Positions 19,721-27,526 of a stretch of DNA of 34,330 bases are shown here, piece by piece. The stretch's first letter is position 1; each line of letters starts with the position of its first letter. The DNA lies in NCBI GenBank assembly GCA_002007425.1, contig MUGK01000030.1, positions 1 to 34,330 on the forward strand. Direction: 5' to 3'. Below the pieces are notes generated by a model. It was not told the origin of the DNA. It did no database searches and saw nothing but the letters and a program-made list of their open reading frames with translations. Both the position numbers and the translations under genes were made by a program. Source of the DNA: Chromatiales bacterium USCg_Taylor (lineage in GTDB: Bacteria; Pseudomonadota; Gammaproteobacteria; JACCXJ01).

Positions 19721-21145
19721 CTAAGCGTCCAGAAAACCATATTTTTTTATCCGATACCGGATGGCCATGCGCGTGACGCCCAATTGACGGGCAGTCTCGG
19801 AGACATTGTTACCGGTGCGGCTGAGCGCTTGCTCGATGAGGAGCCGTTCGGCCGCGGCTAATGTCAGGCCCTCGATCGCGGCGATCCGCTCTCGGCCTCG
19901 CTCCCCGGAAAGCCCGGGCAGCATGAGATCCTCGGCGTTCACGGTACCTCCCCCGGTCAGGAGCACCACCCGTTCGATGAGATGTTTGAGCTCTCGAATA
20001 TTGCCTGGCCAGGCGTATTCCCGCAAAAGTCTGCCGGCCGGGACAGTGATCGTCGGCGCGGGCAGCCCGTAGCGCTTGGCGACTTGCCGCGCAAAATGAT
20101 CGGCCAGCGCCACGGCGTCATCAGCGCGCGCCCGCAACGGCGGCACGTGGATCGACAGAACGTTGAGCCGGTAATAGAGATCATTGCGTAGCGCTCCGGC
20201 CGCCATCATTTGCTCAGGATCGCGGTTGGTGGCCGCGATAAACCAAGCCGATACGGTCCGCTCGCGCGTACTGCCGATCCGCCGGGTGCTGCGCCGTTCC
20301 AGCACGGCAAGCAATTTGGATTGCAGATCGACGGGAAGCTCAGCGATCTCATCTAGGAACACGACCCCATCTTCGGCCGCCTCGATGAGGCCGGTCCTAG
20401 CGGTAAGGGCGGTCGTGAACGCCCCTTTTTCATGCCCGAAAAGCTCCGCTTCGATGAGATCCTTCGGCAAGGCGGCGCAATCGACGTGTACGAATGGTCG
20501 CTCGCGCCTTGCGCTGGTGCTATGCAGCAGGCGCGCTACCAAATCCTTGCCGGTGCCGGTCTCTCCTAGAATCAGGATTGTCGGCGGGATCACCGCTGCG
20601 GTGGTGCACAGCGCCCCCAGCCGCTCGGCCTGCCCGCGGATCTTCACGATCGCCGGATGCTGTCCCAGTAAACATACCTCCTCGCGGGCATGGTGTTCCC
20701 GGGCGCGAGAATACTCCAGCGCGCGGGCGAGTTGAGAGTCCCCCAAGACCTTGTCCAAGGTGATCAGCAGTTCATCCAGATCGAGCGGCTTTTTGAGATA
20801 GTCCGAGGCCCTCAACTTCATCGCGGCCACCGCGTCCTCGATCTCCCCGTAGGCGGACAAGACCACCACCGGCAGCTCCGGCGCCTTGTGCTGGCGCAAC
20901 TCGCTCAAGAATTCGAGACCCGATCCGTCCGGCAGGCGCACATCGAGCAAGACGATCTGCGGGTCTGCGGTTTGCAACAGGTGCCGCGCCTTCCCGAGAG
21001 TCCCGGCAACCACCGGCGCATAGCCCTCCTTGGCTAAGCGTTTCTCGACGGCCCGAGCGAACAAGGTTTCGTCATCCACTATCAGCACCCGTACCGGCGC
21101 CGGCGGCGCATCGGGTTCCCGCGTTTGGCTCAGCCGCTCGCTCAT
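19721..21145 (-). CDS. NtrC-family sigma54-dependent response regulator (REC-AAA+-HTH Fis)
   Basis: VRVLIVDDETLFARAVEKRL receiver; LILGETGTGKDLVARLLHSTS, ELFGHEKGAFTTALTARTGLIEAA (GAFTGA-like, here GAFTTA), VFLDEIAELP; Fis HTH NNVSETARQLGVTRMAIRYRIKKYGF. Confidence 0.93.
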   Translation of the reverse strand: MSERLSQTREPDAPPAPVRVLIVDDETLFARAVEKRLAKEGYAPVVAGTLGKARHLLQTADPQIVLLDVRLPDGSGLEFLSELRQHKAPELPVVVLSAYGEIEDAVAAMKLRASDYLKKPLDLDELLITLDKVLGDSQLARALEYSRAREHHAREEVCLLGQHPAIVKIRGQAERLGALCTTAAVIPPTILILGETGTGKDLVARLLHSTSARRERPFVHVDCAALPKDLIEAELFGHEKGAFTTALTARTGLIEAAEDGVVFLDEIAELPVDLQSKLLAVLERRSTRRIGSTRERTVSAWFIAATNRDPEQMMAAGALRNDLYYRLNVLSIHVPPLRARADDAVALADHFARQVAKRYGLPAPTITVPAGRLLREYAWPGNIRELKHLIERVVLLTGGGTVNAEDLMLPGLSGERGRERIAAIEGLTLAAAERLLIEQALSRTGNNVSETARQLGVTRMAIRYRIKKYGFLDA

Positions 21146-22599
21146 ACTATTGAACCACTCCCGCCCAAAGGCACTTCGATCGTGACTCGGGTCCCGCCTG
21201 CCGGATTGGTGCTGAAGGCAAGTTTCCACCCGTGGGCGTTGCAGACCTTAAAGGCAAACGGGATCCCAAGCCCGGTTCCATAGCGCTTGGTCGAGGGTCC
21301 AGGCGTCAAACCGTCCGCCTCCGGGTCGAAGGGCATACCCGGTCCGTCATCATCGATGCTCAAGACGCAACAGTTTCCCTCGCCGTGGGTCGCCACCGTT
21401 AAGCGGCCTCCCACGGGTGAGGCATCGACGGCGTTGGACAAGAGCCCGAATAAGGCCTGTTCGATCAGATCGGCATCGGCCCACACCTCGGGCTCATCGG
21501 CGCCGGAGCGCTCATCGAGCCGCAATCCCTTGTCCGCGATCCTGGCCGCCAATAGGCCCAGCGCCGTCGCGAGCATGCGGCTGGGACGCGCGCGGGTACG
21601 GTTGAGCTTATGTGGATGCAGATACGATACGAGCGAGGTGACCCAGCGGCCGAGACGATCGACCGTCTGTATGACCGCCTGCTTAATCTCGTGGATTTCC
21701 TCGCGCATTTCAACGCAATCGAGTAATTGCGCACTCGCGCGGATACTTGCAAGCGGGTTTCTAATATTGTGCGCGATCACGGGCACGAGGGCTCCCAATG
21801 CCGCCTGGCGCTCTCGCTCGACGAGCGCATCTCGGCTCCTGGCCAGTTCCGCCGCCATGTGGTTGATCGCCAGAGCAAGTTGTTGCACCTCCTCCACCCC
21901 GGCCGCCGAAACCTTGTGGTCGAGAGCGCCAGCGCTCAACAGCCGCGACCCTTCGATTAGACGCGCCATCGGCGAGACGAATCGGTGTTGCAAGCTCAAG
22001 CGCGATAACAAGACCAGGACCGCGGCAAGCAGGATGGGAAGCGGTATCAGCACCGGCGTCAACCGCACCCACTCGCCGACGCGGCGATCCAAGACCGCAT
22101 GTTCGCTGGTTAATAGCCTATCAAAGGCACGGAAAGCGGTTTCAAAGCCGCCGACAAGCTGTTCTTCATGATCCGATTCGAGGATTCTCAAACGTCCCAA
22201 CTGGCTCGCGGCATACGGATCACCGAAGATATTATTCATGTCCTGTTGGATCACCCGGTAAGCACGTTGCATCCCCTGGATGGCCAGCGCTTCAGCGCGC
22301 GAGGCGCTCCCCTGGCGCAAGGCATCGAATTTATCGTCGATGCGCCGCGAGTAACGCGAGTACAAGGCGAGGGCCGCGGTTTCCTCCATGAGCCGCGCGC
22401 GGGTCACTTCGCGGATCTGCCGAAACAAATCGCTCCGGACGTGATGCATGATGTGGGTCAAACGGCTCAGGCGTAAGGATTCCGTGGACGCCTCGCGCCA
22501 AAAATACACCGACAACCCGCCCAACGCACCGGTGACGATGACCAACAGCAGCAAGGCCAGCTCGTAAGTCAACAATAACCCGCGTAGCGATCGGAGCAT
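21142..22599 (-). CDS. Membrane sensor histidine kinase (HAMP, HisKA, HATPase)
   Basis: Two TM segments, H-box VIAHNIRNPLASIRASAQLL, N-box LLSNAVDASPVGG, G-boxes DDDGPGMP and GTGLGIPF; 4-bp overlap with the downstream response regulator. Confidence 0.92.
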   Translation of the reverse strand: MLRSLRGLLLTYELALLLLVIVTGALGGLSVYFWREASTESLRLSRLTHIMHHVRSDLFRQIREVTRARLMEETAALALYSRYSRRIDDKFDALRQGSASRAEALAIQGMQRAYRVIQQDMNNIFGDPYAASQLGRLRILESDHEEQLVGGFETAFRAFDRLLTSEHAVLDRRVGEWVRLTPVLIPLPILLAAVLVLLSRLSLQHRFVSPMARLIEGSRLLSAGALDHKVSAAGVEEVQQLALAINHMAAELARSRDALVERERQAALGALVPVIAHNIRNPLASIRASAQLLDCVEMREEIHEIKQAVIQTVDRLGRWVTSLVSYLHPHKLNRTRARPSRMLATALGLLAARIADKGLRLDERSGADEPEVWADADLIEQALFGLLSNAVDASPVGGRLTVATHGEGNCCVLSIDDDGPGMPFDPEADGLTPGPSTKRYGTGLGIPFAFKVCNAHGWKLAFSTNPAGGTRVTIEVPLGGSGSIV

Positions 22600-22686
22600 G
22601 GGTGATATCCCACGGTTAGGTTGATATTAACCACCACCCTGGTTTATTTGAACCAAGCATTCCGGCCGTGGGTTCGGTCCGCGGGC

Positions 22687-22725: not shown

Positions 22726-22844
22726 TGCAGATCTGTAGCGGCTTACGCCGGGCGCATCACGTTGGCATAATGTATGATTAGGAACAATCGAGCCTAATTC
22801 ATCCCTGATGGCAGTATTAATTAACCAAGTAAAGAGGAGGACAC

Positions 22845-22919
22845 ATGACCTGGGAAACACCTGATTTCGTCGACCTTCGTTTCGGTTTTGAAGTGACCAT
22901 GTACATTTACAATCGCTAG
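22845..22919 (+). CDS. pqqA: PqqA, pyrroloquinoline quinone precursor peptide (24 aa; not in ORF track)
   Basis: ATG..TAG encodes MTWETPDFVDLRFGFEVTMYIYNR, matching the PqqA pattern W-x-x-P-x-[FY]-x-D-L-R-x-G-[FL]-E-V-T-[ML]-Y-x-x-x-R with the E-x3-Y cross-link pair (E16, Y20). Strong SD (AGAGGAGG) 4 nt upstream of the ATG. Confidence 0.95.
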   Translation: MTWETPDFVDLRFGFEVTMYIYNR

Positions 22920-22941
22920 AAGATCAGCAACGTGTCAATCA

Positions 22942-22971
22942 CTAGGGGACCTTCGGGTCCCTTAGTTTTTT
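22942..22971 (+). terminator. Rho-independent terminator with cUUCGg tetraloop between pqqA and the ABC transporter
   Basis: CTAGGGGACC-TTCG-GGTCCCTTAG followed by TTTTTT; 10-bp stem with one G-U pair. Confidence 0.9.
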
Positions 22972-22990
22972 AGCACGATCACCATAGACG

Positions 22991-23908
22991 ATGCCGAATG
23001 CCCTTGCCATCGAAACCCGCAGTCTAAGCAAGTCCTATGGGTGTTTGCTAGCCGTCGATGCGTTGGATCTGTCCGTTGCGCAAGGGTCGTTCTTCGGGCT
23101 CTTGGGGCGCAACGGTTCCGGGAAAACCACTACCCTGCACATGCTGAGCACGCTGGTGCGACCGAGTGCGGGTCAAGCGTGGGTTGGCGGTTATGAGGTT
23201 GTTCGCCAGCCCGTCGCGGTGCGCCGGGCGATCGGAGTAGTGTTTCAAGAATCCGCACTGGACCGTACGCTTACGGTGGTAGAAAACCTGCGCTTCGCCG
23301 CGGCGCTGGCGGGCCTCTCGCCTTGGATTGCGCGCCAGCGCGGCGAAGAGCTGTTGAAGCTATTCGATCTGACGGAGAAACGTCACGCACCGGTGTCCAC
23401 TCTGTCCGGCGGGATGCGGCGCGCCCTCGATATCGCACGCGGGGTCTTGCACCGGCCGCCGATCCTGTTTCTGGATGAGCCCACCATTGGCCTCGATGTC
23501 ATCAACCGCCGTCAGATCTGGCGCTTCCTCCACCGTTTGCGCACCGAAGAAGGCTCGACCCTGATGCTCAGCACACACTACATGGATGAGGTTGAGGGAT
23601 GCGACGAGGTGGTATTCATGAAAGGCGGCAAAACGATCGGGCAAGGTCGTCCCGCGGCTCTGGTCAGCGGCGTCGCGTCTTTTATCCTGGAGGTTGAGAC
23701 CGAGACCCCCGCCTTGTTCGCCCAGGAATTAACCCCTCGATTCGGCGAGCCCTTGGCCGAGGAGGGGCGCTTACAGTTTCGCATCCTGGATCGAGACTTC
23801 GCGCTGTCCCATCTCCCCTCCCACCTCAAACACATAACGCGCGGGATCCACCTTCGGCGCGCGGATCTCAACGACGTCTATCTGTGGCTTAACCGCGCGG
23901 GAGCTTAA
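22991..23908 (+). CDS. ABC transporter ATP-binding protein (DrrA/PedB-like, type seen in PQQ-alcohol dehydrogenase loci)
   Basis: GLLGRNGSGKTTTLHML Walker A, STLSGGMRRALDIARG signature, ILFLDEPTIGLD Walker B, STHYMDEVEGCDEV. Confidence 0.9.
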   Translation: MPNALAIETRSLSKSYGCLLAVDALDLSVAQGSFFGLLGRNGSGKTTTLHMLSTLVRPSAGQAWVGGYEVVRQPVAVRRAIGVVFQESALDRTLTVVENLRFAAALAGLSPWIARQRGEELLKLFDLTEKRHAPVSTLSGGMRRALDIARGVLHRPPILFLDEPTIGLDVINRRQIWRFLHRLRTEEGSTLMLSTHYMDEVEGCDEVVFMKGGKTIGQGRPAALVSGVASFILEVETETPALFAQELTPRFGEPLAEEGRLQFRILDRDFALSHLPSHLKHITRGIHLRRADLNDVYLWLNRAGA

Positions 23909-23909
23909 A

Positions 23910-24716
23910 ATGTGGCGCGCAATCAAAGCCATGATAATGCGCGATCTCACGCGCATGGTGCGCCAACGCGGGCGCCTCGTGAGCGCCATGGTGCGGCCCC
24001 TCATCTGGTTGTTCGTGATCGGCTCGGGTTTCGACGCCCTTCTGAGCGCTGCCGGAACGCCCAACTACCGGCAGTTTCTGGTCCCGGGTCTGCTATGTAT
24101 GGTGATGCTGTTCGGGGCCTTGCTCGCCTCCCTGTCCATGGTCTACGACAAGGAGTCCGGGGTGATGCGCATGTTGATCGTGGCACCCTTCCCGCGTTAC
24201 GTCATTATCCTCGCGCGGACCGCCAGCGCCACAATGGTGGGGTTGACCCAAGCCCTCATGCTGATGCTGATCTTATTACCGCTTGGCTACCTCGCTGACA
24301 CGCAAAACGTTGGACTCCTCGTGGTCGGACTGGTATGCACGGCGCTCCTGTGTGCGAGCATCGGCACTCTCATCGCGGTATTCAGCAAAGCCTTGGATGA
24401 CTTCGCGGTGGTGATGAACTTCTTTATCTTTCCGATGTACTTTCTCAGCGGCGCACTCTATCCGATCGGACAGTTGCCCGACGTGCTAAAAGCGCTGGTT
24501 TTAATCAATCCTTTCAGCTACGGGGTCGATTTGATGAAGCATGCGCTCGCCGCGCGGGCGAGCCCCCCCTTCGGTGCAGAATTTGCCCTCTATCACGATC
24601 TTCTGGTGCTGGTGGGCTTTTCGGCCCTGGCCCTGAGCATCGCTTGCTACCGGTTCTCGCAGGCGCCGGTGTTCGAGACACTGGCGCGAATGCTCAGTCA
24701 CCGCAAGAGTCATTAG
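23910..24716 (+). CDS. ABC-2 type permease (DrrB/PedC-like)
   Basis: MWRAIKAMIMRDLTRMVRQRGRLVSAMVRPLIWLFVIGSGF, six hydrophobic segments, FIFPMYFLSGALYPIGQLP; starts 2 nt after the ATPase stop. Confidence 0.9.
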   Translation: MWRAIKAMIMRDLTRMVRQRGRLVSAMVRPLIWLFVIGSGFDALLSAAGTPNYRQFLVPGLLCMVMLFGALLASLSMVYDKESGVMRMLIVAPFPRYVIILARTASATMVGLTQALMLMLILLPLGYLADTQNVGLLVVGLVCTALLCASIGTLIAVFSKALDDFAVVMNFFIFPMYFLSGALYPIGQLPDVLKALVLINPFSYGVDLMKHALAARASPPFGAEFALYHDLLVLVGFSALALSIACYRFSQAPVFETLARMLSHRKSH

Positions 24717-24736: not shown

Positions 24737-25046
24737 TCACGGCAGCATACGGCGGAAAACCCGATCGCCGGGCCGCAACGCGTGCCGCTGCGCACCCGCG
24801 ATATGCGTGAGGGCCGCCACCAGCAGCAGCGCATTCGCCTCGTGTAACTCGGAGAAGAAATCGTTGAGCACGGGATCTTTCCAGCCCCAATGGGGTAACG
24901 GCCAGCCGAAAAAGCTCGTTCTGTAACCGCTAAACGATGACGACAGATAGCCGCTGAGCGGTGCAGAAAAATCAACACATAGAGAAGCGCATGGGTCGCG
25001 CCGGCGAGCGGATAGGTGTTCTGTGCCCGGCCACAAAGCCACCGCG
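24737..25046 (-). pseudogene. Truncated, frameshifted cytochrome b561 remnant
   Basis: PLSGYLSSSFSGYRTSFFGWPLPHWGWKDPVLNDFFSELHEANALLLVAALTHIAGAQRHALRPGDRVFRRMLP in one frame, continued upstream as YPLAGATHALLYVLIFL in the neighbouring frame; N-terminal helix not found. Confidence 0.7.
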
Positions 25047-25244
25047 CGACGCCCTAAAGGGTATGGCGTTTGCAGCAACATTCGAGCGGCGGGTTTACGA
25101 CACCAGTATAGGGATGGGTCATCGTGATTGCGGAAAAAACCATCTTGGTTTAACGTCGTTTTTCGATTCATCCCATAGTAGAATGATTGTCAAATAGTTA
25201 AAGAGCAGCGATATGCGCGCGGGAACACCGCGGAACAAGGGAAG

Positions 25245-25907
25245 ATGATGACACAACGCCAAATCGGCGCCATCACGAGGACGATTTGCCTCGTGCTCAT
25301 GATCGCCGGTGGTGCTGCGATCCAGGGAGTCTGGGCAGCAAGCAGCGGCCATCACGATTACGAACTAGAAATCATCAAGTCCGAGCGTATGTTGCTCTTG
25401 AAAAGAGGCGCCAAGATCGAGAAGGCCTTTAGGATGGCCTCTGGGCGCGGCGGGCCGGGCGACAAGCACTACCGGGGAGATCACCGGACTCCGGTGGGTA
25501 CTTATCGCGTCGTAAAAATTAAGCCCAGCAGCCGATTCCACACCTTCTTGCAGTTGAATTATCCCAATGTCAAAGACGCATTTTACGGGCTTCGCGGCCG
25601 GATGATCTCGGAGTACGATTTCGATCGCATCGTCTCGGCGCAGAGATACCACAAGATCCCGCCGCAAAACACGGCGCTGGGCGGCGCGATAGGAATTCAT
25701 GGTATCGGTGCCTTCACACCACAAAAATTCGACATACACCGGAATGTCAACTGGACGCAAGGATGTATCGCGCTGACCAATGAGCAGATCGATACCTTGC
25801 GAAAGTACGTGGGGGTCGGCACCAAAGTCGTGATCGCCGAGACGCTGGCGTCGTCAAAATCCTCTCTTAGCCAGGCGCCGGCGCGGGTTAGAATCGTCAA
25901 GCGATGA
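25245..25907 (+). CDS. L,D-transpeptidase (YkuD domain), signal peptide
   Basis: Hydrophobic leader TICLVLMIAGGAAIQGVWA; GAIGIHGIG...NWTQGCIALTNEQIDTLRKYV (YkuD catalytic His and Cys motif). Confidence 0.88.
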   Translation: MMTQRQIGAITRTICLVLMIAGGAAIQGVWAASSGHHDYELEIIKSERMLLLKRGAKIEKAFRMASGRGGPGDKHYRGDHRTPVGTYRVVKIKPSSRFHTFLQLNYPNVKDAFYGLRGRMISEYDFDRIVSAQRYHKIPPQNTALGGAIGIHGIGAFTPQKFDIHRNVNWTQGCIALTNEQIDTLRKYVGVGTKVVIAETLASSKSSLSQAPARVRIVKR

Positions 25908-25963
25908 GGTGAGAGGTTTAAAGAGGCCCGGGGCGGCCCTGAAGCCACGATCACCCTATTTCG

Positions 25964-27526
25964 ATGAGATTGTCCCCTTCGAGTAAACCCATACGCAGAA
26001 AAACCACCAAGCGGCTGGACCTCATCGGGGCGGCCCGCATCGCGCTTGCGATCGTGCTTGGCGGCGCGCTGCTGAACGCAGGCGCCGACACGGGAGCGGC
26101 GAATCGCATCGAACAGCTTCTGCATGCGTGTACTCAACCGCAAGGCCAGCGACTGGATTGCGACTATCGCCTGCTCACCCCGGAGGCGGTCACCGGATTC
26201 ACAGCCGCGATCGAAGGCGTCTCTTTACCCAACCCGCGCACGACGGACTACCCCTATGATGGCAGCAGCTCAGCGATTCTTTTTCTCATTGATGCCGGGA
26301 CCTTCCATAACCTGGCCGTCATCGAGACAATTGTCGAGCATATACGCTTACTCATCGGCCTTTCCAAACCGCACCATCGGGTGGGCGTGGCGACTTTCCA
26401 CGGCAATCCGACCTTAACACTCCCAATCGGGTCCGTTCCAAAGGATATCGTCGCCGCGGTCCGCACGCTCACCAGCCCGCAAAGTTCGCAATCGACCCAG
26501 CATGATGCCTATAAAGCGTTGCGGATCCTGGGTCAGTACCCCGCGGTACGAAAAGCGCTCTTTTTCTTTACCGACGCAGCGGCGAGCAGCGAGTCCTATT
26601 ATCAAAGCGAACTGGTCGCCGCTGCACGCGATGCCAACGTGTCAGTATACAGCGTCGCTTACGTCAGTTCCGAGCAACCTTCCCCGGCGCTGACCTCCCT
26701 AAAGCGTCTGAGCAGGGAGACGAACGGGAGACTGATCCGCGCCGATCCTCGCGACTTCTCGCTTCCCGCTGGGTTTATGACCCAGCCCTACGCGGCCATC
26801 GATAGCGGCGGACAGATCAGCATCGATCTGAGCGCCGCGGTGACCGCGGGGCTTTCAGGACCGCGTTGGGTAACCCTGAAGGTTGCGCTCCAAGGCAGGA
26901 GCATCGAGGTGCCGCTACCGGTGACGGTCCCTGAGCCTGCCCCCGCCGTGCACGCAGCCGGACAAGCCCCAACCCCGTCCGCCGCGATGCCGGTTCCTCC
27001 GGCGCAGCTTGATGCCCCCTCCGCCAGTCCCTGGGTTTATCCACTAACGGCGATCGGGCTGGTCACCCTCATCGGCGGCTTCATTTATCTAAGGCAGGAC
27101 CGGGCGCCGCGCGCCGACGAACCCGACACGCTCAGCGTACCGCGCGCCTATCTGGTGCGCAAGAATGACGCCGGTACACGATGCGTGATCACCGCCTCGC
27201 CCTGGCGCATCGGGCGCGGGAAAAATAATGAGATGGTCATCCCTGACAGCTCCGTATCGCGCCATCACGCCGAAATCATGCGCAACCCGGATGGCACCTT
27301 CGCCATCAAGGACCTTGATTCCCTCAACGGTTTGTTCGTCAGCGATAAGAAGGTGCGGCGGTCGATGCTCAGCGACGGTTGCGAGATCGATATTGGAGAC
27401 GTGCGTTTCACTTTCGCGATCGAGGGCGCTGACGTCAGCCCCTCCGACGTGACGGTCTCGGAGCCCCAAACCATGAATCGAACGGTGCATGCAGAGCTTT
27501 TCAATCGCCGCTCCCAACACACTTAG
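25964..27526 (+). CDS. Membrane protein with N-terminal vWA-like domain and C-terminal FHA domain
   Basis: N-terminal hydrophobic leader; AILFLIDAGTFHN...RVGVATFHG...LFFFTDAAASSESY vWA-like; TM WVYPLTAIGLVTLIGGFIYL; FHA WRIGRGKNNEMVIPDSSVSRHHAEIMRNPDGTFAIKDLDSLNGLFVSDKKV. Confidence 0.85.
   Translation: MRLSPSSKPIRRKTTKRLDLIGAARIALAIVLGGALLNAGADTGAANRIEQLLHACTQPQGQRLDCDYRLLTPEAVTGFTAAIEGVSLPNPRTTDYPYDGSSSAILFLIDAGTFHNLAVIETIVEHIRLLIGLSKPHHRVGVATFHGNPTLTLPIGSVPKDIVAAVRTLTSPQSSQSTQHDAYKALRILGQYPAVRKALFFFTDAAASSESYYQSELVAAARDANVSVYSVAYVSSEQPSPALTSLKRLSRETNGRLIRADPRDFSLPAGFMTQPYAAIDSGGQISIDLSAAVTAGLSGPRWVTLKVALQGRSIEVPLPVTVPEPAPAVHAAGQAPTPSAAMPVPPAQLDAPSASPWVYPLTAIGLVTLIGGFIYLRQDRAPRADEPDTLSVPRAYLVRKNDAGTRCVITASPWRIGRGKNNEMVIPDSSVSRHHAEIMRNPDGTFAIKDLDSLNGLFVSDKKVRRSMLSDGCEIDIGDVRFTFAIEGADVSPSDVTVSEPQTMNRTVHAELFNRRSQHT

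Follow-up and report, generated by a model that had tools for sequence, protein, structure and literature searches.

Known systems for PQQ precursor supply and transport

In the Methylophilaceae, 3 to 12 copies of pqqA, the gene for the PQQ precursor peptide, usually occur together with one set of the other pqq genes (PMC4109929). In Azospirillum, work cited in PMC6115532 places a quinoprotein dehydrogenase gene under sigma-54 control, and an ECF sigma factor influenced a pqqA:lacZ fusion (PMC12826043). On the transport side, PMC12997753 cites PedA1A2BC as a system that Pseudomonas putida needs for the intracellular transport of La3+. Our literature search, mostly of non-subscription journals, turned up no account of pqqA being controlled through sigma-54 or by a two-component system. 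We also know of no carrier that has been assigned to the transport of PQQ to the periplasm.

Here, we describe a pqqA gene with an apparent two-component system on one side and an ABC-2 exporter pair on the other. The window, meaning the whole stretch of 34,330 nt that was analysed, is an entire contig (C169) of the genome. Judging from the sequence, the regulatory part of the locus is probably best explained as a two-component, sigma-54 switch that is largely dedicated to pqqA.

The pqqA gene and its place in the genome

The precursor gene (22845..22919, forward strand) encodes the 24-residue peptide MTWETPDFVDLRFGFEVTMYIYNR and is preceded on the same strand by the Shine-Dalgarno sequence AGGAGG (22835..22840). 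The preliminary description had called this ORF a PqqA with a Glu-x3-Tyr pair, and the assignment is borne out: the peptide scores 45.8 bits with NCBIfam TIGR02107 (cutoff 20, E 3.5e-12), matches Pfam PqqA (E 6.4e-12) and has the pair at Glu16 and Tyr20.

None of the pqqBCDE genes lies within the 34,330 nt. A search of the genome for pqqB, pqqC, pqqD and pqqE finds all four on another contig (C181), in the order mgtE-pqqB-C-D-E, with pqqE reaching the contig end. PqqB and PqqE score 412.6 and 540.4 bits, both above cutoff, and the ORFs between their genes align with PqqC and PqqD from the pqq clusters of relatives. The same contig carries rpoN. A third contig (C175) encodes an XoxF-type dehydrogenase that scores above its family cutoff and contains an Asp-Tyr-Asp motif, which we take to be the motif of the lanthanide enzymes. 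The earlier statement that pqqBCDE is absent therefore holds only within the window. The contig continues for 22.8 kb on one side of pqqA and 11.4 kb on the other, so that the separation of the gene from pqqBCDE is more than a contig break. The precursor is thus encoded apart from the enzymes that turn it into PQQ, and the locus is an orphan only locally.

Non-adjacency to pqqBCDE is also what speaks for pqqA being a relic left after loss of a pqq operon, but this reading is contradicted by the presence of pqqBCDE, rpoN and the XoxF dehydrogenase gene in the genome, by an intact PqqA sequence that scores far over the cutoff and by the conservation of the regulatory sites upstream of the gene; we give it practically no weight. 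The idea of a spare or second PqqA supply was dropped as well. No second pqqA was found in the genome (2.96 Mb in 246 contigs; at 93% completeness, another copy could be missing from the assembly), and a spare supply is unsupported since the copy in the window is the only one found.

A divergent two-component system

The link between pqqA and the ABC genes that had been reported for this locus is real, but the divergent regulatory genes and the sigma-54 enhancer layout upstream of pqqA had been overlooked. On the reverse strand, divergent from pqqA, lies a gene for a sensor histidine kinase (HK; 21142..22599), followed by one for an NtrC-type response regulator (RR; 19721..21145) whose start overlaps the HK stop codon. 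The HK has an N-terminal, all-helical sensor region, followed by the Pfam domains HAMP (slightly under cutoff), HisKA and HATPase. Its AlphaFold model has a mean pLDDT of 79.6 and a pTM of 0.46, and at this pTM the model matches chiefly generic kinase cores. The RR has the architecture of a sigma-54 activator, with REC, sigma-54 AAA+ and Fis-type HTH domains (Pfam). Its activator loop reads GAFTTA rather than the canonical GAFTGA; a loop of the form GA[FY]T-x-A, with N, S, H, D or T in place of the G, occurs in 44 of the 45 loci of the RR family.

A kinase alignment was used to search 143 gammaproteobacterial genomes for the HK family. It is present in 15 of them, and all 15 are among the 22 genomes that have pqqA (p ~2e-15, assuming independent genomes and ignoring shared ancestry). 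In 39 of the 80 named loci, the HK gene is adjacent to pqqA and divergent from it. Kinases of the family also occur in MAG records whose titles name Klebsiella pneumoniae and Rhizobium (L118, L131, L160); they are 43-51% identical to the HK in the window, and these titles may name the wrong species.

Conserved sites upstream of pqqA

The region upstream of pqqA contains two enhancer-like palindromes, GGTTGATATTAACC at 22619..22632 and GGTTTATTTGAACC at 22641..22654, located by motif and genome scans and lying 22 bp apart. They are followed by a putative sigma-54-type promoter, TGGCATAATGTATGAT (22763..22778, forward strand), 82 bp 5' of the pqqA ATG. The position and -24 element (GG) of this promoter agree with a motif that is conserved upstream of pqqA in relatives, but the match is imperfect, with a score of 0.76 owing to GA instead of GC at -12. 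The same GA recurs in 7 other loci where HK/RR and pqqA occur together, and the GG/GC combination is found in 29 of the 45 loci with RR and pqqA. All of the 16 promoters in these 45 loci that have something other than GC at -12 co-occur with the RR loop GAFTNA or, in the window, GAFTTA. Co-evolution of the activator loop and the -12 element is possible, although it is confounded with ancestry.

The palindromes have the form GGTT-N6-AACC, and their pairing about 22 bp apart is conserved upstream of pqqA. Among 65 non-redundant pqqA upstream regions, 78% contain such a pair with 13 or more of the 16 letters matched and a spacing of 21-23 (peak at 22), as opposed to 0.5% of dinucleotide shuffles; some of the regions counted here were also those in which the motif had initially been recognized. 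A sigma-54 score of at least 0.9 is reached by 57% of the 65 regions and 1.2% of shuffles. Six pqqA upstream regions (L203, L206, L208, L211, L213 and L221) were left out of the motif scoring.

The sites and the kinase occur together. At least one pqqA with a palindrome pair is found in 13 of the 15 genomes with the HK (the two where a clear pair was not found are G096 and G121) and in none of the 7 genomes with pqqA and no HK (Fisher p 2e-4, shared ancestry ignored). When the 15 HK-containing genomes were scanned in full (spacing 22, at most 2 mismatches), 17 places with a pair were found, 13 of them upstream of pqqA; the genome of the window has a single such place, upstream of its pqqA and with 0 mismatches. 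From this co-occurrence and the adjacency of the genes, we infer that the RR is the protein that recognizes the palindromes. Conservation of the DNA sites across many gammaproteobacteria further suggests that the main job of the RR would be to turn on pqqA. One genome (G140) contains four pqqA copies in three loci (L046, L047, L048), and the first copy in each locus carries both the palindrome pair and the sigma-54 element, an arrangement that would suit one common regulator for several precursor genes.

Alternatively, the HK and RR could form a broader regulator, for example of an alcohol, lanthanide or nitrogen response, with pqqA as one of many targets. HK homologues do occur beside other genes, with no pqqA, ABC or b561 gene adjoining the HK in 21 of the 80 loci, and Methylophilus has an HK that is 38% identical, with the scanned pqqA upstream regions under the motif threshold. 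This alternative is nonetheless unlikely given how specific the sites are for pqqA in the full-genome scans (13 of 17 places, and the only one in the genome of the window) and given that a search upstream of xoxF in this genome found no such site. Control of xoxF by the same sites was rejected on that ground. Methylophilus was likewise set aside as a further carrier of the system, its HKs being 38-40% identical and its scanned pqqA upstream regions below threshold. At two loci where ABC genes adjoin the HK and pqqA is absent (L099, L152), no sigma-54 site was found before the ABC genes. A switch devoted mainly to pqqA is the reading that we carry forward.

The ABC-2 pair downstream of pqqA

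Genes for an ABC exporter ATPase (22991..23908) and an ABC-2 permease (23910..24716) follow pqqA on the forward strand; NCBIfam scores and trees place both in a pqqA-linked clade. An intrinsic terminator (22941..22966, forward strand; fold -24.9 kcal/mol, z -5.05) separates them from pqqA, and given its strength, the ABC genes are probably expressed at a lower level.

The pair had been likened to both PedBC and DrrAB; it is close to the PQQ-associated ABC families, but by the cutoffs of the curated models it belongs to neither PedBC nor DrrAB. The ATPase scores 207.2 bits with PQQ_ABC_ATP (TIGR03864, cutoff 302.25) and 259.6 with DrrA (TIGR01188, cutoff 312.45); the permease scores 165.6 bits with PedC (TIGR03861, cutoff 241.35) and 144.2 with DrrB (TIGR01247, cutoff 223.05). 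For the ATPase, DrrA ranks first and the PedB type second, both below cutoff, and for the permease, PedC is the nearest NCBIfam family. The PedBC proteins of relatives pass the cutoffs, with 366-382 bits for PedC. No PedA2 beta-propeller (TIGR03866) reaches its cutoff anywhere in the genome (best 73 bits against 287.3), and the genes that most closely follow the permease include none for a substrate-binding protein. Membership in PedBC is ruled out by the curated cutoffs. The comparison with DrrAB combined these model scores with E. coli YadGH as the outgroup. The PedC proteins group on their own (95%) in the permease tree, in which the deep nodes are weak because the PedC of G107, on a very long branch, is probably misoriented and that of G131 was omitted for stops. 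The ATPase tree has a PedB group at 100% and leaves its position relative to the pqqA-linked clade unsettled.

The permease clade was found in 7 of the 143 genomes (384-499 bits, with the next match at 188), all 7 of which carry both HK and pqqA. The pair adjoins pqqA in G000, G001 and G009 and the HK in G133 and G140, and in G121 (L058) it lies immediately 3' of pqqABCDE, which is the strongest synteny link between the clade and PQQ synthesis. In G096, it is on a contig stretch with no pqqA, HK or pqqABCDE neighbours. The suspicion that the pqqA-ABC adjacency might be unique to one genome with no pqqBCDE anywhere can be put aside: the link is conserved, the clade is restricted to pqqA genomes among the 143, and pqqBCDE is present here. 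As only 7 of the 22 pqqA genomes have the clade, it is no general PQQ exporter. A weaker permease match (173-188 bits) is present in seven other pqqA genomes (G026, G074, G085, G107, G119, G131 and G136), and the two such matches that were checked, those of G085 and G026, are PedC by NCBIfam. No genome among the 143 has both the clade and the weaker match.

On gene linkage, the pair would be the best candidate in the locus for outward transport of PQQ or a derivative, and we regard such export as a tentative but realistic possibility. The strong terminator, the top (sub-cutoff) ranking of DrrA for the ATPase and the absence of the clade from 15 of the 22 pqqA genomes would all fit an unrelated drug-type exporter that happens to lie downstream of pqqA. 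An unrelated transporter is somewhat unlikely in view of the restriction of the clade to genomes with HK and pqqA (7 of 7, among 143) and its position next to pqqA, HK or pqqABCDE in 6 of the 7. A further candidate role, in place of PQQ export, is in the uptake of lanthanides or alcohols by a system like PedA1A2BC; it is suggested by the PedC and PedB-type rankings, the XoxF with its Asp-Tyr-Asp motif and the part of PedA1A2BC in La3+ transport in P. putida (cited in PMC12997753). We find this role quite improbable: both Ped cutoffs are missed, PedC groups apart in the permease tree, the genome has no PedA2 over cutoff, and none of the genes closely following the pair encodes a substrate-binding protein.

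Beyond the permease, on the reverse strand, is what probably remains of a gene for cytochrome b561 (24737..25171). Homology is limited to residues 100-175 of 177 (24746-24970), and the Pfam score is 24.9 bits against a cutoff of 30.1. Several relatives have an intact b561 gene at the same position, and b561 adjoins pqqA, the ABC pair or the HK in 42 of the 80 loci. Farther along (25245-27526), the window has an L,D-transpeptidase (YkuD) gene and then a gene for a protein with vWA and FHA domains.

Proposed mechanism and comparison with known systems

In the mechanism that we propose, the HK would sense a signal in the envelope and phosphorylate the RR, which would then bind the two palindromes and activate RNA polymerase-sigma-54 at the pqqA promoter. 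Most transcripts of pqqA would be short and stop at the terminator behind the gene, with the ABC-2 exporter expressed through limited read-through or from a separate promoter. The peptide would be processed by PqqB-E, encoded elsewhere and expressed separately, to yield PQQ for periplasmic quinoproteins such as XoxF; in this way, precursor supply could set PQQ output. The substrate that the exporter carries out of the cytoplasm would most likely be PQQ or a product derived from PqqA. A more ambitious version, which we consider doubtful, is an undescribed PQQ homeostasis module, in which a pqqA-devoted two-component system senses the state of periplasmic PQQ or quinoproteins and a PQQ-specific ABC-2 exporter supplies the periplasm.

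The locus thus provides a candidate for how many gammaproteobacteria, including some methylotrophs, switch PQQ production through the precursor peptide. The regulatory DNA sites of pqqA are defined precisely enough to be mutated, and the ABC pair is a defined, testable candidate for a PQQ exporter.

Several described systems resemble parts of this arrangement. PrsK/PrsR, AtoSC and ZraSR also combine a sensor kinase with a sigma-54 activator of the NtrC family, but the HK and RR score far under the cutoffs of their NCBIfam models, and the neighbouring genes and predicted target differ. With PedA1A2BC and the TIGR03861 and TIGR03864 families, the locus shares an ABC-2 ATPase and permease tied to PQQ metabolism; it differs in the sub-cutoff scores of the pair, the separate grouping of PedC and the lack of a PedA2 over cutoff. 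The Methylophilaceae, with their split and multi-copy pqqA, similarly have precursor genes that outnumber pqqBCDE clusters. In Methylophilus, however, the scanned pqqA upstream regions fall below the palindrome-pair threshold, whereas the window has one pqqA beside an apparent two-component system. The case in Azospirillum has in common sigma-54 control within quinoprotein metabolism; there, the target is a dehydrogenase gene and the regulator is of the LuxR type, whereas here the predicted target is the PQQ precursor gene itself and the regulator is of the NtrC type.
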